A program made the translations under genes and the position numbers. Below, one piece after another: positions 11,031 through 22,848 of a stretch of 64,000 nt of DNA. Where the stretch lies: the NCBI RefSeq assembly GCF_009789575.1, contig NZ_CP046908.1:4307001-4371000 (forward strand), in the 5' to 3' direction. The DNA is from Stappia indica (lineage in GTDB: Bacteria; Pseudomonadota; Alphaproteobacteria; Rhizobiales; Stappiaceae). Numbering within the stretch: position 1 is the first letter of the stretch; each line of letters starts with the position of its first letter. The notes beneath the pieces were generated by a model. That model was not told the origin of the DNA and searched no databases. It saw nothing but the letters and a program-made list of their open reading frames with translations.

Positions 11031-11106
11031 GCCCAGGTAGCTCAGTTGGTAGAGCAGCGGATTGAAAATCCGCGTGTCGCTGGTTCGATTCCGGCCCTGG
11101 GCACCA
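11031..11106 (+). tRNA. tRNA-Phe (anticodon GAA)
   Basis: A 76-base cloverleaf. Acceptor strands GCCCAGG and CCTGGGC pair perfectly and are followed by A and an encoded CCA. The D-arm AGCTCAGTTGGTAGAGC, the anticodon stem GCGGA/TCCGC with loop TTGAAAA (anticodon GAA), and the T-arm with GGTTCGATTCC are all standard. Its 3' half (11059-11106) lies within a 50-bp repeat that recurs at 22799, so this gene is the attachment site of the element that follows. The integrated copy keeps the tRNA intact. Confidence 0.98.
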
Positions 11107-11108
11107 CC
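11059..11108 (+). repeat. Attachment site copy (tRNA side), 50-bp direct repeat
   Basis: Runs from the anticodon stem of tRNA-Phe through the CCA and two further bases. It is identical over 50 bases to 22799-22848. Integration at this copy keeps the tRNA gene whole. Confidence 0.95.
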
Positions 11109-11176
11109 CATCCCCTTGAAATCGCTAGCTCTTTCGTCCGGTGGCATGTCGGTTGCCTCTCGGTTTGACGGATTTT

Positions 11177-12247
11177 TCAATCCGGTTTGACAGTTTGTGT
11201 TCGCCGAGCGTTCACGGCGGTCTCGAATACGGCACTCACATCGCCCATCTTCCGGCGAAGGTCGGCCGTCTTGCTGTAGTGCCGGGCCATGTCTTCCGTC
11301 TTCTGCCCCAGGGCATCGGCAATGGTCCGGTCATCGCACCCGGCTTCGCGAAGGATGGTCGCCACGGTGTGGCGAAGGCCGTAGAGCGTCAGACCGGGCT
11401 GAACCTTGCCGCCGGCCTCCAGCTCCCGCCGCAATGTGTTCCAGGAGGCGCGGAAGCCTGAGACGGTCCACGGGCGGCCTCTTGAGTTGGCGCAAAGCGT
11501 CATGGCGTCGTGCGCCGGAGCTGCGTCCAGGATCTCCTGCAATGGGCGAATGACGGGCCAGTAGACCGGCGCGCCGGTCTTTGACCGTTCCGTTGCAATC
11601 GCACCATCCTTGAAGAAGGTGCGGGGCAAGGTGAGGGCATCTTGCGGCCCCAGGCCGGTGAACATCATCAGCCCGATAGCCGGCAGCATGTGCGCAGGAG
11701 CACTCGCCAGCACCGCATGCCGTTCGGAATCGCTCCACGGGCGGTTCGCCATGGGTGCGCCGCGCTTGCGTCTGACGCCCCGCACGCCAAGTGCCGGGTT
11801 CTCCTTCATGAAACCGCGTTCCTTGCCCCAGGAGAACAGCAGGGACAGCACCTGTTTCACATAGGTGCCGAACCGTGCGCCGCGCTTGGCCTCGGCTTTG
11901 TCGCGGATCCTGACCACCAGCGGCGACTTGAACTTGTCCAGGCCGGTATCGCGGATCGGGTAGAGATAATCGAACACCCGCTGATAGTCGGCGCGAGTGC
12001 GCGGGGCCTTCTCGAGGAAATCGGGGCTCGCGCGGTACTTCTCTATCAGCTTGCCGAGCGTGCCGGGCTTGGGATCGCCGGTGACCGTCACGGCATCGGT
12101 GATGCGCTGGCATTCGGCGAAGAAGGCCGCCGTGCCGAGCGGGGCCTTGTTCAGGTCCACCGCCTGCCGGGTCTTGCGGTGGTAGCACCGCCACTTGCCG
12201 AAGCGATCCTTGAATATCTGGAAGCCGCGCACGCGCACCACGCTCAT
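11177..12247 (-). CDS. Site-specific tyrosine recombinase (integrase)
   Basis: A 356-residue integrase that would catalyse insertion at the neighbouring tRNA-Phe; its 3' end lies 68 bp from the attachment repeat. The C-terminal catalytic domain shows the beta-hairpin lysine (ERSKTGAP), the second-arginine motif YGLRHT and the nucleophile tyrosine in MARHYSK. The usual first catalytic arginine in TGLR-x-x-(D/E) reads TGLGPQDAL, and the two histidine positions read Tyr (YGLR) and Gln (LGQK). I recall similar TGLGP(Q/K)DAL sequences in alphaproteobacterial phage integrases, so this may be a family trait. The clean att repeats show that the recombination happened. Confidence 0.93.
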   Translation of the reverse strand: MSVVRVRGFQIFKDRFGKWRCYHRKTRQAVDLNKAPLGTAAFFAECQRITDAVTVTGDPKPGTLGKLIEKYRASPDFLEKAPRTRADYQRVFDYLYPIRDTGLDKFKSPLVVRIRDKAEAKRGARFGTYVKQVLSLLFSWGKERGFMKENPALGVRGVRRKRGAPMANRPWSDSERHAVLASAPAHMLPAIGLMMFTGLGPQDALTLPRTFFKDGAIATERSKTGAPVYWPVIRPLQEILDAAPAHDAMTLCANSRGRPWTVSGFRASWNTLRRELEAGGKVQPGLTLYGLRHTVATILREAGCDDRTIADALGQKTEDMARHYSKTADLRRKMGDVSAVFETAVNARRTQTVKPD

Positions 12248-12250
12248 GGG

Positions 12251-12487
12251 TCAGTCCAGCTTGTCGAGAATTGCGTCGTCGCTTTCGGCCGTGCCTGCCT
12301 TGAGCTGGTCAAGCCAGGCATCCAGGTCGTGCGTGTCCCAGAGGCGCGAGCCGTTCGGCATCGCCACCGGCGTGACGGGACAAAGCCCCTCGAACGCACT
12401 GGAAGCGATCCCGCAATAGCTCGCGGCCGCTGCCTTCTTGAGCATCCGGAACGGTGGAATTTTGACCTCGATAAGAGCCCTGTTCAT
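12251..12487 (-). CDS. AlpA-like / excisionase-type helix-turn-helix protein
   Basis: A small DNA-binding protein of 78 residues with a winged-helix layout (MLKKAAAASYCGIASSAFE, then MPNGSRLWDTHDLDAWLDQL). This is typical of AlpA or excisionase proteins encoded beside integrases, which control integrase expression or excision. It ends 3 bp before the integrase start on the same strand, so the two are probably co-transcribed. The ATG at 12487 is preceded by GGAG. A 110-bp gap separates it from the DUF2190 gene. Confidence 0.78.
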   Translation of the reverse strand: MNRALIEVKIPPFRMLKKAAAASYCGIASSAFEGLCPVTPVAMPNGSRLWDTHDLDAWLDQLKAGTAESDDAILDKLD

Positions 12488-12597
12488 GGTCTCCAGCTCC
12501 GTTGATGTGAAAGGCGGTCTGCCCCTGCCTGAAGGAAGCCCAGCGGCGGCAGGCAGGGGCTTGAGGCGGGACCGCGCCGCCCATCCCACACCCGCCG

Positions 12598-12939
12598 CTA
12601 GATCGCGTGTCCGGTGATGAGGATGCGGCCGACGGTGGCCGCCGTGGCAGCGGCGACAAGCGCCGTGCCGATGCGAAGGTTGTCGGCCGCCGTGGCCGTG
12701 ACCACCTTGTTGGCGTCGTCCCAATAGGCCGGCGCGCCGGCCGTGAAGGCCGCCGTGTCGTCCTTGGCCAGGTCGTAGACGCCGTTGGTGGCGATCTCGA
12801 CTTCCGCCCCTTCCGCCGCCGTGGTGGCGGCCACGCCGAACAGGTGGCCGACCAGCACGCCTTCCCCGGAAGACAGGCCGCCGGCGGGCGCGGTGACGGT
12901 GACGTAGTTCCCAGGCTGCACGAAGTTCTTCATGGTCAT
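12598..12939 (-). CDS. DUF2190 family phage capsid-associated protein
   Basis: A 113-residue all-beta protein matching the DUF2190 pattern (MKNFVQPGNYVTVTAP, GVLVGHLFGVA, GVYDLAK, GRILI). Such proteins are encoded next to phage capsid genes and are thought to be decoration or head-stabilising proteins. The start overlaps the stop of the upstream gpW-like gene as ATGA (12936-12939), which supports this ATG and translational coupling. The ATG at 12933 is the only alternative. Confidence 0.85.
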   Translation of the reverse strand: MTMKNFVQPGNYVTVTAPAGGLSSGEGVLVGHLFGVAATTAAEGAEVEIATNGVYDLAKDDTAAFTAGAPAYWDDANKVVTATAADNLRIGTALVAAATAATVGRILITGHAI

Positions 12940-13151
12940 GTGCCTTTCGAAGAGTTGATGTAGACCACCCGCACGGGCGGTTTGCCGGCTTGCGCGGCGA
13001 TCTGGCGTTCCAGGTCGGCAATCGCGGCGGCCAGCTCGGCATCGCTGCGGTATTCGACCTTCTCGCCCTCGCTATCGACCGCCCGGCGCCCGCTGGAGCG
13101 GAGCTTGCGCAGCCGCTCCAGCCGGTCGGCCAGTTCGGAATGGGCCGCCAT
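12936..13151 (-). CDS. gpW-like phage head-tail joining protein
   Basis: A 71-residue helical protein resembling lambda gpW-type connectors: an N-terminal helix (ELADRLERLRKLRSSGRR), a short beta turn (VDSEGEKVEYRS) and a second helix (AELAAAIADLERQI). It would sit below the portal ring and close the filled head. The ATG at 13151 overlaps the stop of the capsid gene (TGATG), and the stop overlaps the next start (ATGA), so the head genes form one coupled operon. Assignment is by layout, size and position. Confidence 0.72.
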   Translation of the reverse strand: MAAHSELADRLERLRKLRSSGRRAVDSEGEKVEYRSDAELAAAIADLERQIAAQAGKPPVRVVYINSSKGT

Positions 13152-14968
13152 CACGCGCCCGCGTTCGTGTACCAGCCGCGCCAGTCGAGGAAGGACGCGC
13201 CGTAGTCCAGGCGAACCTTGACTTCCACGCCGTCCACCTCGAAGCCGGCCCGGCTTTCGGTCTGCGGACCTTCGGAGCCCATCAGGTAGGCATATTCCAG
13301 CCCCTCGACGGTCGCCGGATCGGCCGCGACGTACCAGCGGTTCACGTCGGTAAGGCGGGCTTCCACCACCAGTTCCAGCTTGCCGCCGAAGACGTTGACG
13401 TCATCGGTCCGGGTCGGCTGGATGGCCGCCAGGATCTCTTCCGCCTGCGTTTCCAGCTCCGGCGGCACCACCAGGAACTTGGGGGCAATGGCGATCGGCC
13501 GGCCGTTGATGCCCTTCTGCCGGCGCATGGCAAGACGTGCCGCCGACAGCGTTTCCTTGGAGATCGGCGCGCCGCCCGCCGCAAGGTTCCCGTGATCGGC
13601 ATGGAACACGGCCTTGCCGTCGCCCATGACCGGGCCGAGGCCGCCGCCGACGGTCAGCAGGTCGACCAGGAATTGCGCCTCGAATTCGGAAGAGGCGAGG
13701 CCGAGCTTGCCGGCAAGATCGGTGAAGGCTCCCAGGTCGTCGTTGACGAGGGCCTGCCGGGTCAGACCGACAATCGTGCCGTAGGTGCCGATGGCGTAGG
13801 TCTCCTTGGCCTCGACAAAGCCGGAGCTCTTGAACTCGCCGTGCTCGTTCACCTTCTCCAGCTTTGCCATGTCGGCCGCCTGCACCTTGGTCTTGGCGCG
13901 GAAATCCTTGTGGCTGGTCTGCCGGGCCAGCCGCTTCAAGGTGGCCGGGGCAGTCTGGTACGCGGCCCGCAGGGTGCGATTGGCCGTGTCGGCGAAGATC
14001 GCCGGAAAGTCGCTGGTGGTGTGCAGCGCGCGGGTGATCGTGTCGGCCGGCAGCAGGCCGGTGGTGGAGATCCCCGCCCGCTGCAGGCAGTCGCGCGCCA
14101 TGTCCAGCGTGGTCATGCCGGTGAAGGCGCGGGCCTGGTCGGACAGCTTGTGCGCCGGGTTCACGCGGGTGGCGTAGATCGCTTCGCCCATGCGGGTGGC
14201 GAGGGTGGCCGGGTCGTCGTGGTGCACCATGTTGCTGGTGCGTGCCACCGGCGCCCGCTCGCGTGCGGTGCGCAGCCGCTCCAGCGCCGCGGATCGGGCC
14301 TCGCCCTCGCTCGCGCCGCGGTCGATCTGGTCATTCGCCCAGTCGCTGCCGAGATCGAAGGTGGCGGCAAGCGCCCGGATCTCCTGATTGACGGCCGCGC
14401 GGGTCGTCTCCTGCACCGGCGGCGTGGCGGTCGTGGTGGTTGCCGGGGGCGCTTCCGGCTGGTTCTGCGTTTCGGGCATTCCGGTTCCTCGGATACGTGC
14501 GGCCGGGTCGGCTCCGACCGCCACAAGACTGATTTCACGTAGCTCCCAATGGGTGACGGTGCGGACCCTCGCGCCCGTGTTCGGGTCCTTGCCGTCGCGC
14601 CACCTCTTCGGGGAGTAGCCGACCGATATGTTACGGAGGTTCCCGACGCGCACGTCGGAATAAATGGCATTATGGCGCTCGGAAAAGCGGACCTTGGCCA
14701 CCAGATTGCCCGCCTCGATGCGGGCGGCCAGGACAACGCCGAGCACGCTTTCCAGCCCATCTTGCCGGTGACTGTCGAGAAACGGCATGCCCTCCAGGCG
14801 GGCCAGGTCGACGGCCGAGTCGGAGATGGTCAGGAACTCGGTGAAGGGGCCGGCCGCATCGTGCCGGATCACGCCCGCGCCGGTGGAGGCGATCAGCTCC
14901 ACCGTGCGGGCCTTCTCGTCCAGGCTGGCCGGGGTGAAGCCCGTGCGCATGAGAACGGGTGCGTTCAT
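13151..14968 (-). CDS. Prohead protease / major capsid protein fusion
   Basis: A 605-residue polyprotein. The N-terminal 165 residues are an HK97-type (U35) prohead serine protease with the histidine in FLDSHRQ and the serine in RNISVGYSP. A Pro/Thr/Ala linker follows (about 167-190). The C-terminal 400 residues are the capsid region, with a helical scaffold-like stretch then an HK97-like fold (SKETLSAARLAMRRQKGING, FLVVPPELE, WYVAADPATVEGLEYAYL). Protease-capsid fusions are a known phage arrangement in which the protease cuts itself away. The start overlaps the portal stop (ATGA, 14965-14968). Confidence 0.9.
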   Translation of the reverse strand: MNAPVLMRTGFTPASLDEKARTVELIASTGAGVIRHDAAGPFTEFLTISDSAVDLARLEGMPFLDSHRQDGLESVLGVVLAARIEAGNLVAKVRFSERHNAIYSDVRVGNLRNISVGYSPKRWRDGKDPNTGARVRTVTHWELREISLVAVGADPAARIRGTGMPETQNQPEAPPATTTTATPPVQETTRAAVNQEIRALAATFDLGSDWANDQIDRGASEGEARSAALERLRTARERAPVARTSNMVHHDDPATLATRMGEAIYATRVNPAHKLSDQARAFTGMTTLDMARDCLQRAGISTTGLLPADTITRALHTTSDFPAIFADTANRTLRAAYQTAPATLKRLARQTSHKDFRAKTKVQAADMAKLEKVNEHGEFKSSGFVEAKETYAIGTYGTIVGLTRQALVNDDLGAFTDLAGKLGLASSEFEAQFLVDLLTVGGGLGPVMGDGKAVFHADHGNLAAGGAPISKETLSAARLAMRRQKGINGRPIAIAPKFLVVPPELETQAEEILAAIQPTRTDDVNVFGGKLELVVEARLTDVNRWYVAADPATVEGLEYAYLMGSEGPQTESRAGFEVDGVEVKVRLDYGASFLDWRGWYTNAGA

Positions 14969-16377
14969 TCCGCTGCCTCCTGTTCGTCCGGTTGCGGCGC
15001 GGCCGGCGGCGTGGCGGCACGGGCGATTCCGAGCCGGGCCAGCCGCTCTTCATCGGCGGCGATCTCCGCATCCACGTCTTCCGCGTCGTAGCCGCGTTCG
15101 GCGATGACTTCGGAGCGCGAGCGCATCCGGTTGTTGATTGCGATCTCTGCCGCCCGCGCTTCCTTTTCGGGGTCCACCCAGGGCCAGGCCGGCGGCAGCC
15201 ATTTCACCGACTCCAGCGATTGCCGTTCCGCCTGGTAGATCGCGGCCGGGATCTCGCCGGTAAGCACCTGGTGGCGGATGACGGCGCGCCAGACCGGCCG
15301 GCACATGCCGAAGACCATCACATGATGCTGGATGGACTGGCAGAATCGGCGGAACTCCAGCAGCGCCGCCCGGGCGCTGGAATAGTTCACCTGGCTGTAA
15401 TCGCCGGTCGCCTGTTCGTAGGTGACATTGGTGCCGGCGGCGATCATCCGATAGGTGCTGATGGCCAGCGCGCCGGCCCCGCCCTGGTCGGGCACGTCGG
15501 GAAACTCCACCGACTTGCCCGGCGGAAGCGGGATCAGCGCGCCCGGCTCCAGCCCGGCCTGCTGTGCGTTGCCCGTCTGTTCCCCGTCGTAAAGGGATCC
15601 GCCGTCCGGATCGGTGATGAAGCCGGCATGCAGGGCGGCGACCTTGGCGCGCATCAAGAGCGCATCGTTGAGCGCGTCCAGCTCGCGCGCCGGCAGCAGC
15701 ACCGGGGCGAACCACGACAGGCCGCGCACCTGTCCCGGCATCATCGGCCGGAACAGGTGGATAACGTCGCTCGCCGGCATCCGCACGGGCGCTTGCTGGA
15801 TGCCGGCGAGCGTATCGCCAGGCGCTGCCCGGCGAATGTGATAGGCGGCGACGCGGCCCGTGCCGTCGAATTCGACGCCCTGATAGACCATCGGGCCGGT
15901 GTCGCTGACGCGGGTCACGGCACGGTCGAGCTGCTCCGGGTGCAGCCGGCGAAGCTGCGGCGCACCGGTGTCGGGATCGGCGGTGAAGATCAGCAGCGCT
16001 TCGCCGAAGGTGGCGAGATCGCGCACCGCGTTTTGCTGGAGGCCGAAAAAGTCCGTCCGCCCGTCCGCGTCCGCCTCGTCCGTCCAGGTCAGAAACCGCT
16101 GGTGGAGCTGCTGGCGCACCGCCTCTTGCGGATGCCGCGAGCGCGGCTTGATGCCGTCGCCGGCAATGTTGGTGGCCAGGCTTTCGGTGACGCGCACGCC
16201 CGTCGGATTGTTCATCGCAAAGTGCATCGCCCGTGCCGCCACCGTGGCGGCCAGCCCATGCAGGGTGCCGGCGCTGGTCACGGTCGGCGCATCCCGCCAC
16301 CGGCGGCCGCCGCCGGCCGCGTCCAGCGACCGGGTGGAGAACAGGGCATCCAGGACACGGCGGGCGAGGGCGCGCAT
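14965..16377 (-). CDS. Phage portal protein (lambda gpB family)
   Basis: A 470-residue portal subunit. It forms the ring through which DNA enters the head and to which terminase docks. The family features seen are the N-terminal helix ending in SARAMHFAMNNP-type sequence (ARAMHFAMNNPTGVR), the central AYHIRRAAPGDT / VIHLFRPMMPGQVRGLSW block and a downstream basic helical segment. The length is close to lambda-type portals (about 500). The C-terminus is acidic (EEQEAAE-like). It is coupled to the capsid gene by a 4-base overlap. Confidence 0.92.
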   Translation of the reverse strand: MRALARRVLDALFSTRSLDAAGGGRRWRDAPTVTSAGTLHGLAATVAARAMHFAMNNPTGVRVTESLATNIAGDGIKPRSRHPQEAVRQQLHQRFLTWTDEADADGRTDFFGLQQNAVRDLATFGEALLIFTADPDTGAPQLRRLHPEQLDRAVTRVSDTGPMVYQGVEFDGTGRVAAYHIRRAAPGDTLAGIQQAPVRMPASDVIHLFRPMMPGQVRGLSWFAPVLLPARELDALNDALLMRAKVAALHAGFITDPDGGSLYDGEQTGNAQQAGLEPGALIPLPPGKSVEFPDVPDQGGAGALAISTYRMIAAGTNVTYEQATGDYSQVNYSSARAALLEFRRFCQSIQHHVMVFGMCRPVWRAVIRHQVLTGEIPAAIYQAERQSLESVKWLPPAWPWVDPEKEARAAEIAINNRMRSRSEVIAERGYDAEDVDAEIAADEERLARLGIARAATPPAAPQPDEQEAAE

Positions 16378-16380
16378 CGC

Positions 16381-16983
16381 TCAGGCCTCGCTGCCGGTGT
16401 CCGGGGCGAAGAGCCGGCTGAAAAGCGGGGCAAGGAACAGAACGCCATGGAGGGGATAGCGCAGCGCCTTGCGCTCATGGGCCATCCGGATAAGCCCCTT
16501 GTCCGCTTCCGTCAGCTCGTCCCCGTCGCTCTCAAAGGCGCGCAGAAGCTGCTGGTTCGGCCAGGGGTTTTCGGTGAAGTGGAAGCCGACGAGGTTGCCG
16601 GCAAGGTCGCCACCATAAACGAGGTACCAGTTGAGATTGCCCCGCTTTGCCTCGTTCACGACGGTCTCGATACCGTTCGGCTTGCGCTGGTGGCCGTCTT
16701 CCTCGATCCACGGATAGCTGGCGTCCAGGTGCTTGAACCCGCGCGCCAGGCCTTCGAGCCGGGAGACATGGACGCCCGAAGCGAGAAAGAAACTGTAGAT
16801 CCGCGCCGCCGCAAGATGCCGGTCGTTGAAGTAGAAGCGCGAGTTGGCTTCCTCGCCGGAGCGCTCCGGGTGTTCGAAGCCGAACAGGCCGTTGCGTACG
16901 TAATTGCGGATCTGACCGGCATGCAGTTCCTCGGTCTGTCCTGTCGCCTGCGACAGGCGCCGCGCCATCTCTTTCACGATCAT
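16381..16983 (-). CDS. Unknown element protein with MerR-like N-terminal segment
   Basis: About 200 residues. The N-terminal part (MIVKEMARRLSQATG, QIRNYVRNGLFG, then FNDRHLAAARIYSFF) resembles the winged helix-turn-helix of MerR-type proteins, in which a recognition helix precedes an 'R-x-Y' and a 'F-x-x-x-x-L' helix. The C-terminal part is unrecognised. The ATG at 16983 has AGGA 8 bases upstream; in-frame starts at 17028 (ATG) and 17055 (TTG) lack a good site. It lies 3 bp before the portal gene, so it belongs to the head operon, perhaps as a regulator. Function unknown. Confidence 0.68.
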   Translation of the reverse strand: MIVKEMARRLSQATGQTEELHAGQIRNYVRNGLFGFEHPERSGEEANSRFYFNDRHLAAARIYSFFLASGVHVSRLEGLARGFKHLDASYPWIEEDGHQRKPNGIETVVNEAKRGNLNWYLVYGGDLAGNLVGFHFTENPWPNQQLLRAFESDGDELTEADKGLIRMAHERKALRYPLHGVLFLAPLFSRLFAPDTGSEA

Positions 16984-17068
16984 TGAACCCGTCCTGGTGC
17001 GTTTCGGAAATGCGATTTCTGAATTCATGATGCCTGCATGCCGGGAGGCGGTCAAGGAAAATGAAAAT

Positions 17069-17518
17069 TCAATTTCTGTTTTGTGCCTTGCCCCCCTCCA
17101 TCAGGCGGAACGGGTTGAGATCAGCGCTCATCAAAAGCTCGCCGCCGAGTTCTTCCGGTGCGGTGCCGGCGGTCGCGGCCATGGCGTCGAGAGCGGAATA
17201 GAGCGCCCGCTGGATCATCCGTTCGAGGGCGCGACGTTCGCAGGCGTCACGGTCGGTCAATGTTCGTTCGGGCAGCAGCTCGACAGCCCCGTAGACAAGC
17301 ATGATTTGCAGCATCGCGCCGGCAAGGCTGGTCGCTCGCGTGCAGCAGGCCTCGGCTTTCAACGCCTCCATGCGGTCGAAGATCTCGCATTCCGTGGCCT
17401 CCAGCTCCGTCTTGCGCTCGCCGCCGTACAGGTTGGCGCCTTCCGCCTCCAGGTCCGACCATCGGCGCGACAGCTCCAGCAGCTCCCGGCCGATGGCCTC
17501 CACCCGGCACCCGCTCAC
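17069..17518 (-). CDS. Unknown element protein, helical
   Basis: A 149-residue protein of unknown function, mostly predicted helical and acidic/basic mixed (AIGRELLELSRRWSDLEAEG, ECEIFDRMEALKAEACC, AVELLPERTLTDRDA). The GTG start at 17518 overlaps the stop of the upstream gene as GTGA (17515-17518), typical of translational coupling, so I chose it over longer forms whose upstream residues are out-of-frame-like arginine-rich sequence. It is followed by an 85-bp gap. Confidence 0.66.
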   Translation of the reverse strand: MSGCRVEAIGRELLELSRRWSDLEAEGANLYGGERKTELEATECEIFDRMEALKAEACCTRATSLAGAMLQIMLVYGAVELLPERTLTDRDACERRALERMIQRALYSALDAMAATAGTAPEELGGELLMSADLNPFRLMEGGKAQNRN

Positions 17519-17877
17519 AGCTCGTGTTCCTGTTCGAAGTCCGACGTGTCCAGTTCCAGACCCGGTTCCTCGTTCTCGTCGTGGGACCAGAAGTGCAAAT
17601 GGTGGTCCTGCCGTTCGGAACCGTGCGTCGTCCAGCCGAGCGGCTGTTCGCCCTCGCCGGTGGGGTCTCGTTCGGGGCGGACCACATGCGGGCCGTTCGC
17701 CGGCCAGGAGAGATAGGGCTCGCCGTCGCCGGTTTCCTCGTAGTCGCAATCGCCGTCGATCTGGTCGAGCAGCGCCACAAGGTTCTCAATCGCCGCCTCG
17801 ATGCGCCGGCGGGTGGCCGGCTCTATCGTCAGCCAGACCGGGACGCACCTCGCCCGTTCACGAAAATGGATGCCCAT
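17515..17877 (-). CDS. Unknown acidic element protein
   Basis: A 120-residue protein of unknown function. The N-terminal third is helical (EPATRRRIEAAIENLVALLDQ). The rest is strongly acidic and rich in Asp/Glu/His/Trp (DGDCDYEETGDGEPYLSW, ENEEPGLELDTSDFEQEHEL). It is the first gene of the leftward operon that runs into the portal and capsid genes, and it faces the XRE regulator across a 90-bp AT-rich promoter region. An early-operon control or DNA-mimic role is conceivable from the charge but is speculation. Confidence 0.7.
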   Translation of the reverse strand: MGIHFRERARCVPVWLTIEPATRRRIEAAIENLVALLDQIDGDCDYEETGDGEPYLSWPANGPHVVRPERDPTGEGEQPLGWTTHGSERQDHHLHFWSHDENEEPGLELDTSDFEQEHEL

Positions 17878-17967
17878 CCGTGTGCTCCTGTGGTATAAAT
17901 TGATAACGGTGTGATTATTTCTCAGCTTGGTTATAACGTCAAGCTAAAATGAAAACGGTGTTATAAA
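17878..17967. promoter_or_regulatory. Divergent promoter/operator region of the element
   Basis: An AT-rich 90-bp gap between the leftward head operon and the rightward XRE gene. It holds related short motifs: ATAACGGTGTGATTAT (17903-17918), the palindrome GTTATAAC (17930-17937) and AACGGTGTTATAA (17954-17966). A similar CGTTGTTATAA occurs at 21704-21714 upstream of terS. These are good candidates for XRE operators. The XRE start has no ribosome binding site, so a leaderless transcript from the TATAAA-like sequence is possible. Confidence 0.5.
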
Positions 17968-18189
17968 ATGCAGGCTGTGCAATGCCGGATGGCGCGCGCC
18001 GCTCTAGGGCTTGGCGTTAGAGAACTGGCAGAAATGGCCATGGTGGCGCCGGCCACTATTTCCCGGCTGGAGCGCGGCGAAGAATTGAAGCCGCGCACGG
18101 TCGAGGCGATCCGCGCCGCCTTGGAAGCGGCCGGCGTGATCTTCATCGACGAGAACGGCGAAGGGCCAGGCGTGAGGTTGCGGAAATGA
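17968..18189 (+). CDS. XRE-family helix-turn-helix regulator
   Basis: A 73-residue single-domain DNA-binding protein. The helix-turn-helix is VRELAEMAMVAPATISRLER (about residues 19-38), followed by LKPRTVEAIRAALEAAGVIF and a short basic tail. It is probably the element's own repressor, acting at the operator-like motifs just upstream. Its stop overlaps the next start (ATGA, 18186-18189). A degraded second copy of this gene lies at 18964-19155. Confidence 0.9.
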   Translation: MQAVQCRMARAALGLGVRELAEMAMVAPATISRLERGEELKPRTVEAIRAALEAAGVIFIDENGEGPGVRLRK

Positions 18190-18716
18190 TAGGGTCAGAG
18201 CTTGCGATATTTGTTAGTATAGTTTCGCTTATTATCGCGATTGCATCTTTTATCTGGAATGTTTGGTCAAAATTTATTTATCCGAAGCCACGTATTCGTG
18301 TGTACGCTTCTGTTATGAGTGTATACTCAGGCGAAATTGAAGATGAAATTCTGGTTGTATCTGCGGTAAATTTCGGGCCGATAGAAGCGACAATTCGGTG
18401 CTGCGGAGTCAAGATCATCGATGAAGATGGAAGAGAGAAGACTGCTCTCATGAATCCATTGGACATGTATCCGTTACAAAAAAGGCAAACAATTGGCCCG
18501 TTTGGGGGCGGTCTTCCAAAGAAATTATCTGTTGGGGAAGAATTTTCTTTATATTTTCATTATGGTTCGAACGTAAAATTCATAGATAAGTGGGTGGATT
18601 GCTATTTTTTATCAGATACATTTGGGACGATGCATAGAAGTTCAAAAAAAGACGCTCAGAGGATATTCGATAAATTTGAGGCAGATAAGGCGAATGGATT
18701 CAGATTTCAGAATTAG
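18186..18716 (+). CDS. Unknown membrane-anchored protein, AT-rich cargo gene
   Basis: A 176-residue protein of unknown function. An N-terminal hydrophobic helix (residues 5-27, ELAIFVSIVSLIIAIASF) anchors a soluble beta-rich region (RIRVYASVMSVYSGEIEDE, VGEEFSLYFHYGSNV). Its base composition is far more AT-rich than the neighbours, with many Phe/Ile/Lys codons ending in A or T, a sign of separate acquisition. It is coupled to the XRE gene by ATGA. As a small cargo gene in a phage-like element it could be a lysogeny-expressed 'moron' such as an exclusion or defence protein, but nothing in the sequence shows that directly. Confidence 0.72.
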   Translation: MIGSELAIFVSIVSLIIAIASFIWNVWSKFIYPKPRIRVYASVMSVYSGEIEDEILVVSAVNFGPIEATIRCCGVKIIDEDGREKTALMNPLDMYPLQKRQTIGPFGGGLPKKLSVGEEFSLYFHYGSNVKFIDKWVDCYFLSDTFGTMHRSSKKDAQRIFDKFEADKANGFRFQN

Positions 18717-18794
18717 AGTTCTCTATATAATGTAAGTTTTGAATGGGAATTCAATTTATTTTCTTATATTAAGTATAGATGTAATGTATTTGCG

Positions 18795-18956
18795 TCATCC
18801 CATCCACCCCGACCGGATGACTGCCGCGGGCTTTGCGGCTCGAACCTCCGGCCGGGCCAGTTCGTCCAGCCGATCCTGCCAGTTCGGGTTGATCACCTGC
18901 CGCGCGGCGAAGGAATAGACCACGCAATCCAGCGCCTCGGCATCATGGCCGCCGTC
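18795..18956 (-). pseudogene. Remnant of a second terminase large subunit gene (3' end)
   Basis: Encodes about 50 C-terminal residues (EALDCVVYSFAARQVINP... ending KPAAVIRSGWMG stop) that match the end of the intact TerL at 19418, differing at only a few residues but at many bases. It therefore comes from a related, diverged element rather than a fresh duplication. It is truncated at about 18956, where it meets the xre remnant. The 78 bp between the preceding gene and this fragment are AT-rich with nothing recognisable. Confidence 0.85.
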
Positions 18957-18963
18957 TTATTCG

Positions 18964-19155
18964 TGCTTGCAGCGGATAGCCTTTGCGAAGTCGCGAGAGC
19001 AGTTGCACATTACGATTGCTTGACTGGAGCGCGTCGAGGATTTGAAGCCGCGCACGGTCGAGGCGATCCGCGCTGCCCTGGAAGAGGCAGGTGTGATCTT
19101 CATTGATGTGAACGGCGAAGGGTCAGGCATTAGATTAAGGAAGGAGAATCTGTAA
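18964..19155 (+). pseudogene. Remnant of a second XRE regulator gene
   Basis: In frame, it reads QRIAFAKSREQL, ITIA, a TGA stop at 19021-19023, then LERVEDLKPRTVEAIRAALEE and GVIFIDVNGEGSGIRLRKENL to TAA at 19153-19155. This matches the C-terminal half of the XRE protein at 17968, with a stop in place of the arginine codon of the recognition helix and a shortened N-terminal half. It cannot make a working regulator. Its TAA overlaps the ATG of the next gene (TAATG), as the intact xre overlaps its own cargo gene. Confidence 0.82.
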
Positions 19156-19349
19156 TGTTTTCTGTTGGAGATAAAGTGCATCTGAAGTCGGGAAGCCCGG
19201 ACATGACCGTGGAAGCTGTTGACGGTGATAGTGTACATTGTGTTTGGTTCAGTGGAATGAACCCTGTGAGGGACACTTTCAAAGTAGCGTCCTTGTCGAA
19301 AAAGGGTGGCGATAATTGGGATACGCCCGGCGGGAAAATTCTCGATTAG
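19155..19349 (+). CDS. YodC family (DUF2158) small protein
   Basis: A 64-residue protein matching the DUF2158/YodC pattern: FSVGDKVHLKSGSPDMTVEAV, then VHCVWFSG and an ETF-like DTFKVASL segment. This is a KOW/SH3-like small beta barrel of unknown function, often encoded by phages and mobile elements. AAGGAG lies 9 bases before the ATG, and the start overlaps the stop of the xre remnant. It is the second cargo gene between xre and terL in this element. Confidence 0.83.
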   Translation: MFSVGDKVHLKSGSPDMTVEAVDGDSVHCVWFSGMNPVRDTFKVASLSKKGGDNWDTPGGKILD

Positions 19350-19417
19350 ATCATTTGCAAAGTCCGGCGTGCGAGGCCCCGCGAGAGCAATAATTTGCTC
19401 TCCGGGGCTCTTTGTTT

Positions 19418-21202
19418 CTACCCCATCCATCCCGACCGAATGACCGTCGCCGGCTTTGCGGCTCGTACCTTCGGCCGGGCCAGCTCGTCCAGCCGGTCCT
19501 GCCAGTTCGGGTTGATCACCTGCCGGGCGGCGAAGGCATAGACCACGCAATCCAGCGCCTCGGCACGGCGGCCGGGGATGCGCTCGAAGCGGCGTTGCGG
19601 CTGGCCGCGCGCATAGCGCACCACGGCGCGCTCGCTCGCCAGTTGCTCATACCAGGCCGCCGGCAAGGCATCGGAAAAGCGCACGGTGTTGCCCTTGGCG
19701 AGGCGTCCGGCCAGGTGGCTCTTGATCCCGTCCACGCCGACAATCCACAGACGGCCGCCGCGCGTCTTGGTTCTGGATTTCTCGATCCATGGCCGCGCGC
19801 CCGGTGCGCCCTTGATCGCCAGCACCCGGCGCGCGGCGCGCGGGAAGGCGAAGCCATAGACCGCTTCCATGGTCTCGCCGTCGCCGGAATCGACCGCCAC
19901 CGCATCCAGCGCCAGCCTGCCGCCCAGCGGGTGCGCATAGGTCTGGCGCAACAGCCCCTCCAGCTCGGCCCAGGTCGCCTCGTCCGCCGGCCTGCCCCAC
20001 ACAACCGCATGGCCGAGAACGAAGGCGGTGCCGGCGCGGTCCCAGCCGACGAATGTAATCTCGAGGCGGTCGCGCTGCACGTCCACGCCGGCCGTCAGGG
20101 CCAGCACCTCTTCCGGCATCGCCTCGAGCGAGAAGCCTTCCGCCCGCGCGGCGAGCGCGGCCTCGTCCAGTTCCTCGCCTTCCGCGCGCCAGCCTTGCCC
20201 CAGCACCGTGTTGACGAAGGTCTGCAACAGGTCCGGCGTGTCCTTCGCGGCCAGGAACTCGGCAGCGAGCTTGCCCCAGGAGGCATTTGCCAGCGGCGAC
20301 ACCAGCGCATTGACGCGGAAGCCCGCATGCCCCTTCACCTGCGGCGCGGTGGCGCGCCAGCGCCCGACCGCCACCATCGCCGGCTTGTGCCGTTCCTCCA
20401 CCACCGATCCGCAGGACGGGCAGCACCAGGCGGCCTCGTCCGGCCGGTCGGCCGGCCACTGGATATCGCGCCAGGCGATCTCGTGGAAGGTTGCGCAGTC
20501 GGGGCAGGGCACCTCGAACACCCGCATATCGGAGCGCGCATAGGCGGCGAGCACATGCGAGGTTTCTTCGAAGATCGGGGTGGAGCCGATGACGATCTTG
20601 CGATCCGGAAAGGACAGGGTGCGTTTTTCGGCCAGCAGGATCGGGCTTCCTTCCGCCGTCACGTCCATGGCGTCGGCCTCGTCCACGATCAGGATTCGGG
20701 TGTTGTGGGCGCGCAGGTTGCGCGGGGCCTTGGCCGCCACGACCTTGAGCGAGCCGCCTGGGAAGCGGCGCGACAGCAGCGTGTTGCGGTTCTCGCCCTG
20801 GCCCTCGGTGGCACCGGCCAGCGCCCCGGCAAGGGCCGGCGAGGCCTCGAATGTCGGTTCCACATTGGTGACGACGAAGTTGCGGCAGTCGTCTTCCGTC
20901 GGCAGCACGAAGAGCACCGGCGCCGGCTCGTTCGCCACATGGGCGGCGAGCGCCCCCACCAGCAACGTGGTGTAGCCGATGCGGGCCGACTTCACGACTG
21001 TGACGCGCTCGGTCTCAGGGTCGCTGATCGCATCGGCAATGCCGCGCTGGAACGGGTAAAGGCGGATCGGGCCGGGCAGGGCCGACACGTCTTCCGGCAA
21101 GCGGATCTCGCGTTCGATCCAGTCGGACAGCGGCAGGCGCGGCGGTGGTTGCAGGGCGCGCAGCGCGGCGGTGCGCACGCGGGTCATGGCGTCATCGATC
21201 AT
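19418..21202 (-). CDS. Phage terminase large subunit (GpA family)
   Basis: About 594 residues. An ATPase-nuclease that packages DNA into the prohead. The adenine/P-loop region reads VVKSARIGYTTLL (the KSAR-x-GYTT signature of GpA), Walker B is ILIVDEADAMD, a zinc-like pair lies in CPDCATF and CCPSCGS, and the nuclease part begins GVDVQRDRLEITFVGW. The ATG at 21202 overlaps the terS stop by 11 bases; a longer form to 21250 would add an Arg/Trp-rich stretch that looks unreal. The final codons recur as a remnant at 18795. Confidence 0.94.
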   Translation of the reverse strand: MIDDAMTRVRTAALRALQPPPRLPLSDWIEREIRLPEDVSALPGPIRLYPFQRGIADAISDPETERVTVVKSARIGYTTLLVGALAAHVANEPAPVLFVLPTEDDCRNFVVTNVEPTFEASPALAGALAGATEGQGENRNTLLSRRFPGGSLKVVAAKAPRNLRAHNTRILIVDEADAMDVTAEGSPILLAEKRTLSFPDRKIVIGSTPIFEETSHVLAAYARSDMRVFEVPCPDCATFHEIAWRDIQWPADRPDEAAWCCPSCGSVVEERHKPAMVAVGRWRATAPQVKGHAGFRVNALVSPLANASWGKLAAEFLAAKDTPDLLQTFVNTVLGQGWRAEGEELDEAALAARAEGFSLEAMPEEVLALTAGVDVQRDRLEITFVGWDRAGTAFVLGHAVVWGRPADEATWAELEGLLRQTYAHPLGGRLALDAVAVDSGDGETMEAVYGFAFPRAARRVLAIKGAPGARPWIEKSRTKTRGGRLWIVGVDGIKSHLAGRLAKGNTVRFSDALPAAWYEQLASERAVVRYARGQPQRRFERIPGRRAEALDCVVYAFAARQVINPNWQDRLDELARPKVRAAKPATVIRSGWMG

Positions 21203-21695
21203 TCGCCAGGTCCTCCAGGGCAAGGCGCAACTCGCTGTCGAGCGTGGCAACGTCGTGGGCGGTGAGGTGCGGCAGCACCTGGCGCAGGCGCGAGGGCACC
21301 GCGAGAAGCCGCGAGCGGACGCGGCGCAGGATGTCCGCCCACTCGCGCTCGACCTCGCCGGCCGGCAGCAGCTCGCGGCGCAGCAGGGCGTTTTTCAGCG
21401 CCGCATGGTCCGCCTGTTCCCGCACCAGCCGGGTCCGCTCGCTGGCCGCGTCCGGTTGCGCGGCGAAGGGCAGGGCCGTCTGGTCGCCTTGCGCTGCCGA
21501 GCGCTTGGGGTCCACGTTGGCGCGGATCCATTCCCGGCCGCGCGCCACGTCGATGCGCCCGTCAGGCTCCACCGGCAGACCGGCGCGGATCATCTGCGAT
21601 ACCCGCCCCGGCGAGACGTTCACCAGCTTGGCGAAGGCGGCTTTTCGCACCACCTTCGGCTCGCCGATCATCTCCGATCCATGCGCTAACTGCAT
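21192..21695 (-). CDS. Phage terminase small subunit-like DNA-binding protein
   Basis: A 167-residue protein. The N-terminal winged helix-turn-helix (KAAFAKLVNVSPGRVSQMIR, then GRIDVARGREWI) resembles lambda Nu1-type small terminases, which recognise the packaging site. A long helical C-terminal part follows (REQADHAALKNALLRRELL), probably for oligomer and TerL contact. It directly precedes and overlaps terL. The start at 21695 is uncertain; the ATG at 21671, just after GGATCGGAG, would remove 8 residues. Confidence 0.85.
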   Translation of the reverse strand: MQLAHGSEMIGEPKVVRKAAFAKLVNVSPGRVSQMIRAGLPVEPDGRIDVARGREWIRANVDPKRSAAQGDQTALPFAAQPDAASERTRLVREQADHAALKNALLRRELLPAGEVEREWADILRRVRSRLLAVPSRLRQVLPHLTAHDVATLDSELRLALEDLANDR

Positions 21696-21703
21696 GCCTA
21701 ACC

Positions 21704-21714
21704 CGTTGTTATAA
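21704..21714. promoter_or_regulatory. Operator-like motif CGTTGTTATAA upstream of terS
   Basis: Shares CG-x-TGTTATAA with AACGGTGTTATAA at 17954-17966 beside the xre gene, and lies 9 bp upstream of the terS start. It is a possible site for the element's XRE repressor to control the packaging genes. Confidence 0.38.
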
Positions 21715-21784
21715 TTGATGTTTAGCTATCAAGTTGACCTTAGGGAGGAAAACGGCGGGCCCTGCCCACCCGTATACAACGGGC

Positions 21785-22561
21785 CTAGGAAGGACCCGCC
21801 GCCATGGGTTCGAGGCCGCCGATAAGCTCCACCGGGAACATCCAGCCTTCCCGTCCATGCAATCGCACGGTCATCGGCGGCTTGCCGGTGCGCCTGTGAT
21901 GCGCCTCGGCAGCCTTCTGCCATCGGGGATCGGTGGTGGCGATGAACTCCGCGCGTTTCCCCGCGCTCGGTCCCGTCCCGGCAACGGACGGTGGCCTTGA
22001 GATCGGGGCGGGTGTGGTCTCGCATCCCTTGGTCGGTGGCTCCCGGTCAGGCGGGGGCGTGTCCGCCTCGCGTGTGCACGCGCGCGTTTTGTTTATTTCT
22101 TTCCTTCTTATTTGGGGGTCACCGGTGACCCCTTTTTCGGGTCGATTTTGAACCCCTTTACGGTCTTCGCTGACCCCCTTTGCGGAAGAAAGGGGTTCAT
22201 CCGTGACCCCCTTTTCGGCGGTGTCGGCGAGCCGGTCGAAGCGCAATTCATAGTAGTTCGGGTTGCCGCGCCCGCCCTTGCGGTGCACGGCAATGAGCCC
22301 CAGTTGCTCCAGCTTGCGCAGGGCGCGCTTGGTGCTGCTGTCGCTGGTGACGGCGGCAGTGGCGAGCGTTGCGACCGTGGGCCAGGCGCGGCCCGAGCGG
22401 GCGTTGATATAGCCGCACAGGACGATGCCCACGCGCACCTCAGCCGGCGTCAGGCGTGCATCAACGCCAAGCGCCAGCATCCATGCACCCTTGTCGGAAT
22501 ACTGGACACGATAGGTCGTGCGGCCGCGCTCGCGGTCGCTAAGGCGGGCCACCTTGGTCAT
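21785..22561 (-). CDS. Helix-turn-helix replication initiator-like protein (phage O-type)
   Basis: About 258 residues. The N-terminal half is a winged helix (LTPAEVRVGIVLCGYINARS, WPTVATLATAAVTSDSSTKR, ALRKLEQLGLIAVHRKGGRG) as in phage O-type and plasmid replication proteins. The middle contains repeated KGV-(T/S) units (EKGVTDEP, AKGVSEDR, KGVQNRP, EKGVTGDP) encoded by DNA repeats that look like iterons. The C-terminal part (RWQKAAEAHHRRTGKPP) is unassigned. The ATG at 22561 overlaps the stop of the small upstream frame (ATGA); the TTG at 22567 is less likely. The replication role is inferred from fold, position and repeats. Confidence 0.72.
   Translation of the reverse strand: MTKVARLSDRERGRTTYRVQYSDKGAWMLALGVDARLTPAEVRVGIVLCGYINARSGRAWPTVATLATAAVTSDSSTKRALRKLEQLGLIAVHRKGGRGNPNYYELRFDRLADTAEKGVTDEPLSSAKGVSEDRKGVQNRPEKGVTGDPQIRRKEINKTRACTREADTPPPDREPPTKGCETTPAPISRPPSVAGTGPSAGKRAEFIATTDPRWQKAAEAHHRRTGKPPMTVRLHGREGWMFPVELIGGLEPMAAGPS
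22080..22219. other. Candidate replication origin: iteron cluster plus AT-rich tract inside the initiator-like gene
   Basis: Four direct copies of a unit near TGACCCCTTTTTCGG occur at about 22126, 22149, 22171 and 22204, an inverted copy AAAGGGGTTCA lies between the last two, and an 18-bp perfect palindrome GGGGTCACCGGTGACCCC sits at 22115-22132. Immediately to the left is a pyrimidine-rich AT tract (about 22083-22113) suitable for strand opening. Iterons inside the initiator gene next to an AT tract are the layout of lambda-type origins. Function is inferred. Confidence 0.6.
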
Positions 22562-22716
22562 GGGCAACCCTCCAGGCGGTCGGCGAGCAACAGCAGCCTG
22601 TCGGCCGCCTCGTGCTTGTCCTCAAGGATGGTTTCCGGGGTGGCGTGCCGATGCGATCCGATGCGCCGAACACGATAGGCCAGGTCCCGGATTTCCTCCG
22701 AAACGGGGTTTGACAA
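22558..22716 (-). CDS. Small helical element protein (52 residues)
   Basis: An open frame beginning with TTG at 22716: LSNPVSEEIRDLAYRVRRIG, then HATPETILEDKHEAADRLLL and ADRLEGCP. It is amphipathic helical and charged, with codon use like its neighbours. Its TGA overlaps the ATG of the initiator-like gene (ATGA), the coupling seen throughout this element. No ATG and no strong ribosome binding site are present, so confidence is moderate. Function unknown. Confidence 0.48.
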   Translation of the reverse strand: MSNPVSEEIRDLAYRVRRIGSHRHATPETILEDKHEAADRLLLLADRLEGCP

Positions 22717-22798
22717 ATCGCCGCTAAGTGCTTGATTTTGCGTGTTCGGTTTTACAGTCGAATTCGGCGCAAGCGATTGGCGGGCGGTAAGCCTAGCG

Positions 22799-22848
22799 GG
22801 ATTGAAAATCCGCGTGTCGCTGGTTCGATTCCGGCCCTGGGCACCACC
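22799..22848 (+). repeat. Attachment site copy (distal), displaced 3' half of tRNA-Phe
   Basis: Identical over 50 bases to 11059-11108. It contains the anticodon loop, T-arm, acceptor 3' strand and CCA but lacks the 5' half, so it is not a tRNA gene. It marks the right end of the element; chromosomal sequence resumes after it. The bases 22717-22798 between the small frame and this site hold nothing I can identify. Confidence 0.95.

Follow-up and report, generated by a model that had tools for sequence, protein, structure and literature searches.

A probable phage satellite with its own head genes and no recognisable tail genes in the tRNA-Phe gene of Stappia indica

A 64,000-nt stretch of the Stappia indica genome (contig NZ_CP046908.1, positions 4,307,001 to 4,371,000; hereafter the window) contains an element at 11059-22848 that encodes head and packaging proteins. 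We consider it very likely that this element is an integrated mobile phage satellite, which builds its own DNA-filled head and obtains a tail from another phage. This is supported by ends within tRNA-Phe, a full set of head and packaging genes together with a head-tail adaptor, a conserved gene order in relatives at many tRNA genes, a place on one side of the capsid tree, purifying selection, and a narrow range of element sizes. Its working mode is most likely similar to that of capsid-forming phage-inducible chromosomal islands (cf-PICIs), i.e. an own small head and a borrowed tail, and mobilisation by a helper phage is predicted from sequence. The best sequence sign of a tail from elsewhere is the gpW-like adaptor, which is kept under selection where no tail gene was found. 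In phage lambda, gpW closes the head for tail joining.

Boundaries and gene content

An earlier note, made from the letters of the window, had proposed a cleanly bounded element of ~11.8 kb in tRNA-Phe. This holds, as a 50-nt exact repeat (the longest exact repeat) occurs in two copies 11,740 bp apart. Both ends of the element correspond to the 50-nt terminal sequence of tRNA-Phe (11031-11106), the sole tRNA found within the window. On the minus strand, starting from the far end, the order is initiator, small and large terminase subunits (TerS and TerL), an AT-rich block on the opposite strand (an HTH gene and two cargo proteins), small genes without family together with a putative regulator, portal, protease-capsid fusion, gpW-like adaptor, cement, small regulator and integrase (Table 1). 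The integrase, TerS, TerL, portal, protease-capsid fusion and two head accessory proteins named in the earlier note were all matched by Pfam or PHROG profiles, as was its initiator, whose gene holds the iterons. Its statement that gene order and translational overlaps are intact agrees with 4-nt start/stop overlaps at three head-gene junctions (portal/capsid, capsid/gpW and gpW/cement). The AlpA-like protein fared less well, with a weak match to a PHROG regulator but none in Pfam; in several close relatives this 78-aa gene likewise adjoins int. AlpA-type regulators are found in cf-PICIs.

Pfam and PHROG scans of the element's open reading frames (ORFs), with the shortest ORFs outside the scan, gave zero matches to tail, baseplate or lysis families, in line with the earlier note, and none to the HNH endonuclease family. 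One head-tail connector, the gpW-like Ad1, was seen in the element, and no second. For terL, the start was chosen as the ATG overlapping the end of terS.

Table 1. Features of the element, in window coordinates
Feature	Position	Strand	Evidence
att (attachment site) copy 1, 3′ end of tRNA-Phe	11059..11108	+	50-nt exact repeat
Tyrosine integrase	11177..12247	-	phrog_1 8e-34; PF00589 3.6e-9
Small AlpA/excisionase-like protein, 78 aa, weak assignment	12251..12487	-	phrog_25900 0.0019 (longer frame)
Head cement/decoration protein	12598..12939	-	PF09956 1.6e-27
gpW-like head-tail adaptor Ad1, 72 aa	12936..13154	-	phrog_2545 3.1e-16
S78 protease-major capsid fusion	13151..14968	-	phrog_4523 1.9e-197; PF04586, PF25209, PF10124
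Lambda-type portal	14965..16377	-	PF05136 1.9e-82; phrog_21 2.4e-90
Putative MerR/HTH-type regulator before portal	16381..16983	-	position and L206 counterpart
OrfY, no family assigned, divergent from HTH gene	17515..17877	-	profile matches in 15 loci
XRE-type HTH protein, likely repressor	17968..18189	+	HTH_3 2.4e-7
Cargo, 176-aa protein without family, in AT-rich DNA	18186..18716	+	GC 0.48 at 18000-18999
Duplicated 3′ end of terL, likely cargo-exchange scar	18799..18942	-	144 nt, 92% to 19422-19565
Partial second HTH-gene copy, likely cargo-exchange scar	19024..19142	+	119 nt, 86% to 18067-18185
DUF2158 protein, cargo	19155..19349	+	PF09926 3e-9
TerL, gpA type	19418..21202	-	PF05876 (ATPase) 1.1e-85; PF20454 (nuclease) 2.4e-93
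TerS	21192..21695	-	phrog_57 1.1e-34
Lambda-O-like replication initiator	21785..22567	-	phrog_270 1.6e-13; phrog_391 (O-like) 7e-10; HTH_36 1.5e-9
Putative cosN core GGGTCCTTCC	21788..21797	-	only exact copy in window
Four iterons inside initiator gene, likely origin	22127..22218	+	GACCCCYTTTNCGG matches
att copy 2, far element end	22799..22848	+	50-nt exact repeat

Recurrence, ancestry and module exchange

A search with the capsid protein gave matches in 31 of 151 genomes. Thirteen of the 151, the window's own included, hold a single match that spans no fewer than 590 residues with an identity of at least 44%; five of these are Stappia, among 14 Stappia genomes, and genome G022 holds two copies. 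A search of genome_contigs yielded at least 493 relatives, and the best 80 were kept, nearly all of them Alphaproteobacteria by title. One contig titled 'Oceanobacillus' (L192) carries an alphaproteobacterial-type satellite with a split terL, and is probably assembly contamination.

Loci were labelled from their gene map. Satellites of the window's group share the order initiator or replication gene, TerS, TerL, portal, capsid, gpW, cement and integrase; TerL and portal are usually separated by an HTH gene in divergent orientation. Thirty elements of this group have tRNA-linked repeats of at least 17 nt, at tRNA genes of 12 isotypes, and 29 of them measure 10,319-13,161 bp (mean 11,577, sd 758), the exception being L183 with 16,677 bp. 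These sizes follow a rule that asks for a repeat of at least 17 nt at an ARAGORN-called tRNA, which includes L207 and L208 and leaves out elements whose repeats are shorter, as well as L190, where a 20-nt repeat is not accompanied by a tRNA. The tail-less form thus recurs at tRNA genes in other alphaproteobacterial genomes, a check that the earlier note had suggested. A second group of satellites has the integrase at the opposite end; in 10 of 12 stretches, repeats with tRNA-Met sequence lie 15.7-18.5 kb apart (ARAGORN called the tRNA-Met in six of the ten; L229, L232, L235 and L236 share the repeat sequence), and the other two (L228 and L234) are without such a repeat. None of 80 IMG/VR loci was a circular or terminally repeated satellite contig, which is a weak test for loci cut from longer contigs.

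The labelled satellites form one lineage in capsid trees, on present sampling. In a tree of 145 rows, from which 39 short or duplicate loci had been dropped beforehand, there is one change between labelled satellites and phages (SH-aLRT 99, with a long-branch warning; the count leaves out 19 unlabelled rows, 11 of them on the satellite side). A more careful tree of 50 of these rows again has one change (support 95/88), which is kept in 91% of 200 bootstrap trees. Trees of the portal and TerL give one and two changes, respectively.

Comparison of the element's genes with those of four relatives revealed no stops, and ratios of nonsynonymous to synonymous changes (dN/dS) of 0 to 0.53, by which the compared genes are under purifying selection. 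The highest value comes from the 72-aa gpW against near-identical L112, with very few changes; against L114, gpW has a ratio of 0.21. The initiator reaches 0.46 against L118, with synonymous changes near saturation; several values against L118 are saturated, the one for cement was dropped as mis-framed, and there is none for the HTH gene.

These data bear on the possibility that the element is a decaying prophage stripped of its tail and lysis genes, a reading that finds some support in tailed phages with homologous head genes (RcKemmy, Psul1 and prophages L127-L129) and in a relative copy with a broken portal (L117). However, tail-less elements occupy a single side of the capsid tree and many different insertion sites, the compared genes are free of stops at the ratios given above, and gpW is located elsewhere than in phages. 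According to the earlier note, close relatives with a full tail and lysis module would have marked this copy as a deleted prophage; among the loci that group with the window in the capsid tree, none carries a full tail module in the stretch available. This outcome, on the point that the note had named as decisive, favours a satellite. On the grounds of synteny, tree and selection we rejected the deleted prophage, which we regard as very unlikely.

While the head stays, the integrase, replication and terminase modules are swapped between relatives. Identity to the window's integrase is 98% in L113 and 89% in L114, but 26% in L112. The latter has a TerL (98%) and capsid (95%) nearly identical to those of the window, yet resides at tRNA-Arg, which together with its different integrase points to recent movement; it has a primase-helicase in place of the O-like initiator. 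L116 combines a distant TerL (38%) with a 73% identical capsid. Such mobility also speaks to the idea of a domesticated head module, similar to a gene transfer agent, that packs host DNA. Gene transfer agents are immobile, host-encoded clusters without integrase. The element is small, no tail gene was found in it, and GTA_TIM, a gene-transfer-agent-type gene, is present in 14 of 14 Stappia genomes, both of which would fit. However, the element has its own integrase, att repeats, many insertion sites, swapped integrases, a gpA-type terminase and a likely cos site, and the single GTA_TIM gene of the host (G000:C1:4645649-4646542) lies outside the window, about 316 kb away. Because of the integrase, att repeats, many sites and likely cos site this reading was rejected, and we deem it extremely unlikely.

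At the tRNA-Phe site itself, about 2.0 kb separate tRNA-Phe from the right flank in G005, and about 17 kb without a capsid match do so in G008. In other Stappia genomes, segments of ~2-3.5 kb are flanked by copies of the att core of tRNA-Phe (L226:613-2684 in G005; G012:C11:44-2230; G008:C1:1347330-1350902), so other inserts may favour this site too.

Tails, helpers and related satellites

Tail genes were sought with a panel of 279 proteins, taken from the region that follows the head genes of tailed relatives. All 41 phage loci have panel matches in at least two ORFs, a lenient control, since the panel derives partly from those loci (own hits were removed, near-copies kept). Among satellites, a match in any ORF was found in 3 of 48 loci of the window's group and 0 of 34 of the second group. 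In the window's group, the integrase lies at most 6 kb after the capsid gene in 46 of 48 loci, and the other two (L035 and L138) end at contig ends. The position of gpW differs as well: it follows the capsid gene in all 48 satellites of the window's group and in 33 of the 34 of the second group (the remaining one has no gpW), whereas in phages it lies before the portal only (27 of 41) or has matches at both places (14 of 41), a contrast that is partly circular, as phage labels made use of gpW position. Tail-panel matches occur in 7 of 19 unlabelled loci, six of which lie on the phage side of the tree. The seventh, L204 (Shinella, branching beside satellites), owes its match to an opposite-strand ORF of 980 aa (L204:6062-9004) that resembles the tape-measure panel weakly; its portal and TerL were not detected.

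The three panel-positive satellites are L039, L183 and L211. L183, a 16.7-kb relative from Bosea vaviloviae within the tail-less clade, encodes a tape-measure-like protein between cement and integrase (L183:12876-14795), and L039 encodes one of 760 aa at the usual location of the terminase (L039:2068-4350). L211 (Sinirhodobacter populi) has a neck-type gene before terL (L211:4313-5017), a phrog_6367 protein that is 46-49% identical to the product of a post-head gene of prophages L127-L129. In RcKemmy, the phrog_6367 gene follows the head-tail attachment gene. The L211 protein is possibly a captured neck part.

Could the element instead be a self-sufficient tail-less virus, or have an own, unrecognised delivery device? 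Some small genes without family remain, and L183 and L039 have the tape-measure-like genes described above. However, the family-less genes are small, variable among relatives and without structural-family match in the scans, and the retained gpW adaptor predicts a tail to join. We view this alternative as very unlikely.

A satellite with a borrowed tail is the reading we prefer, although several observations weigh against it. L183 and L039 carry tape-measure-like genes, and in L039 neither TerS nor TerL was detected. In G022, the portal gene of the second satellite copy is interrupted (L117:8454-9889), so some copies decay. No clean empty tRNA-Phe site was found. At one mismatch or fewer, GGGTCCTTCC is found in 0 of 26 second-group loci, and the roles of the cos site, repressor and regulator are sequence-based assignments. 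Five family searches of the host genome (5.12 Mb, one contig) gave no helper prophage: GpA terminase and lambda-type portal occur only in the element, and PF03354, PF10145 and phrog_6367 gave 0 matches each. Finally, an additional lambda-type portal is present in 7 of 13 carrier genomes versus 42 of 138 others, which is not significant (p = 0.12). As the searches for these helper types found no prophage in the host genome, the helper may come from elsewhere. This is also reported for the E. coli cf-PICI EcCIEDL933, for which native prophages gave no detectable mobilisation (PMC11389934).

As a phage satellite, the element would be kept silent by the HTH protein, a repression lifted by a phage that either infects the cell or is induced there. 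Int and the small regulator would then excise the element, and the O-like protein would start replication at the internal iterons. With GGGTCCTTCC as the cutting site of TerS/TerL, a single unit of 11.7 kb would be packed into a small head consisting of fusion protein, cement and portal. Subsequently, gpW would close the head and a helper tail would join, while the helper would also supply lysis.

The cf-PICIs EcCIEDL933 and EcCI2 are integrated satellites that lack a tail but encode terminases, portal, protease, capsid and connector of their own (PMC10690885, PMC11389934). They carry an HNH endonuclease in their packaging module (PMC10690885), and their capsids fall into three clades (PMC11389934). 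An E. coli cf-PICI capsid is placed beside the capsid of the Rhodobacter gene transfer agent (PMC12846349). The element has in common with them an att-bounded integrase island with own TerS, TerL, portal, protease, major capsid and connector, and no tail gene found. It differs in its gpA-type terminase, lambda portal, protease fused to a Mu-gpT-like capsid and gpW adaptor, and in that no HNH was found. The reading in the earlier note, a candidate satellite with the gene plan of cf-PICIs, is supported. Given the lambda/Mu-type head genes and that no HNH gene was found, we regard the family as a new variant that most likely works like a cf-PICI, and not as a member.

The modelled fusion protein (pLDDT 76.7) has an HK97-type fold in residues 269-605. 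By sequence, the capsid profile matches chains of the JBD30/Mu-gpT type in the PDB and gave no match to the EcCI2 chain. By fold, EcCI2 was tied with many HK97-fold shells, and JBD30 was absent from the 50 rows of VIA-align and ranked 10 by Foldseek, so this model-based comparison is no evidence either way on cf-PICI membership.

Among other systems, MulchRoom and MiniFlayer are likewise satellites that encode capsid and packaging genes, but they have Streptomyces hosts, virulent helpers and terminal repeats (PMC10690885). Tailed relatives have about 31-44% capsid identity and a different gene order. They include the RcKemmy group and the Stappiaceae prophages L127-L129, with homologous TerL, portal and protease-capsid fusion (capsid identity about 35-44%). 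RcKemmy (41.3 kb) also has a gpW-like gene, but before the portal, and a full tail after its head genes; such a tail module was not found in the element. Classical satellites such as P4 and SaPI are small integrated elements of similar size that use the helper's capsid protein, whereas this element has its own. In the literature covered, which did not extend to the main cf-PICI papers, no publication describing such a family in Alphaproteobacteria was found.

Taking these comparisons further, we tentatively propose, with slightly more doubt than belief, a single and separate origin of tail-borrowing satellites from alphaproteobacterial phages of the lambda/Mu type. They would be a fourth capsid lineage beside the three of cf-PICIs, with two size classes (about 11.6 and about 17.3 kb) determined by the size of the head and with freely exchanged replication, integrase and terminase modules; occasional capture of single neck or tape-measure genes may tune tail choice. 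The family points to tail theft by head-building satellites as a long-established lifestyle across Alphaproteobacteria, whose machinery differs from that of the compared E. coli examples. The gpW and portal, set against the neck of the helper, would offer a defined interface for matching to foreign tails, and the narrow size classes and shared cos-like word yield testable predictions.

Packaging signal, regulators and cargo

GGGTCCTTCC, located upstream of terS, is identical in the window and six aligned relatives, and the DNA beyond it varies with the replication module. From its position, the terminase type and its conservation, we consider it the likely cosN. In the window's group it occurs exactly in 22 of 41 loci and with one mismatch in 10; when the seven source elements are excluded, these counts are 15 and 10 of 34, versus 0% and 2% in shuffles that preserve letters only, not dinucleotides. 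A two-mismatch form, GGTTCCTCCC, is present in 5 of 26 second-group loci, 25 to 70 nt before terS, and tailed relatives have GGGTCCTTCC exactly in 2 of 40 loci and with one mismatch in 17.

The pattern GACCCCYTTTNCGG has four matches at one mismatch or fewer, all within the initiator gene, where 0.16 were expected and 0 of 100 shuffles reached four; as the pattern was derived from these same repeats, this measures repetition and not an independent motif. Iterons inside the initiator gene resemble the lambda origin.

For the putative regulator before the portal, the position is conserved among relatives and the sequence poorly so. Its own sequence has no family match, and the L206 protein at the same position matches MerR_1 (1.8e-4). 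XRE-type HTH profile matches occur in 37 loci, although this iterated profile may take in other HTH proteins. Ten elements were inspected by eye for an operator shared between the HTH and terS promoters, and none is claimed. OrfY has no Pfam or PHROG match.

The AT-rich cargo is bordered by second copies of the terL end and of part of the HTH gene, which are likely scars of cargo exchange at the terL-HTH junction. The 176-aa cargo protein has no Pfam, PADLOC or significant PHROG match. PADLOC recognised none of four window proteins and two of five cargo proteins of relatives (L145 and L189). The protein of L189 (L189:6519-7055) matches the capP/RmrA models at 5e-26.

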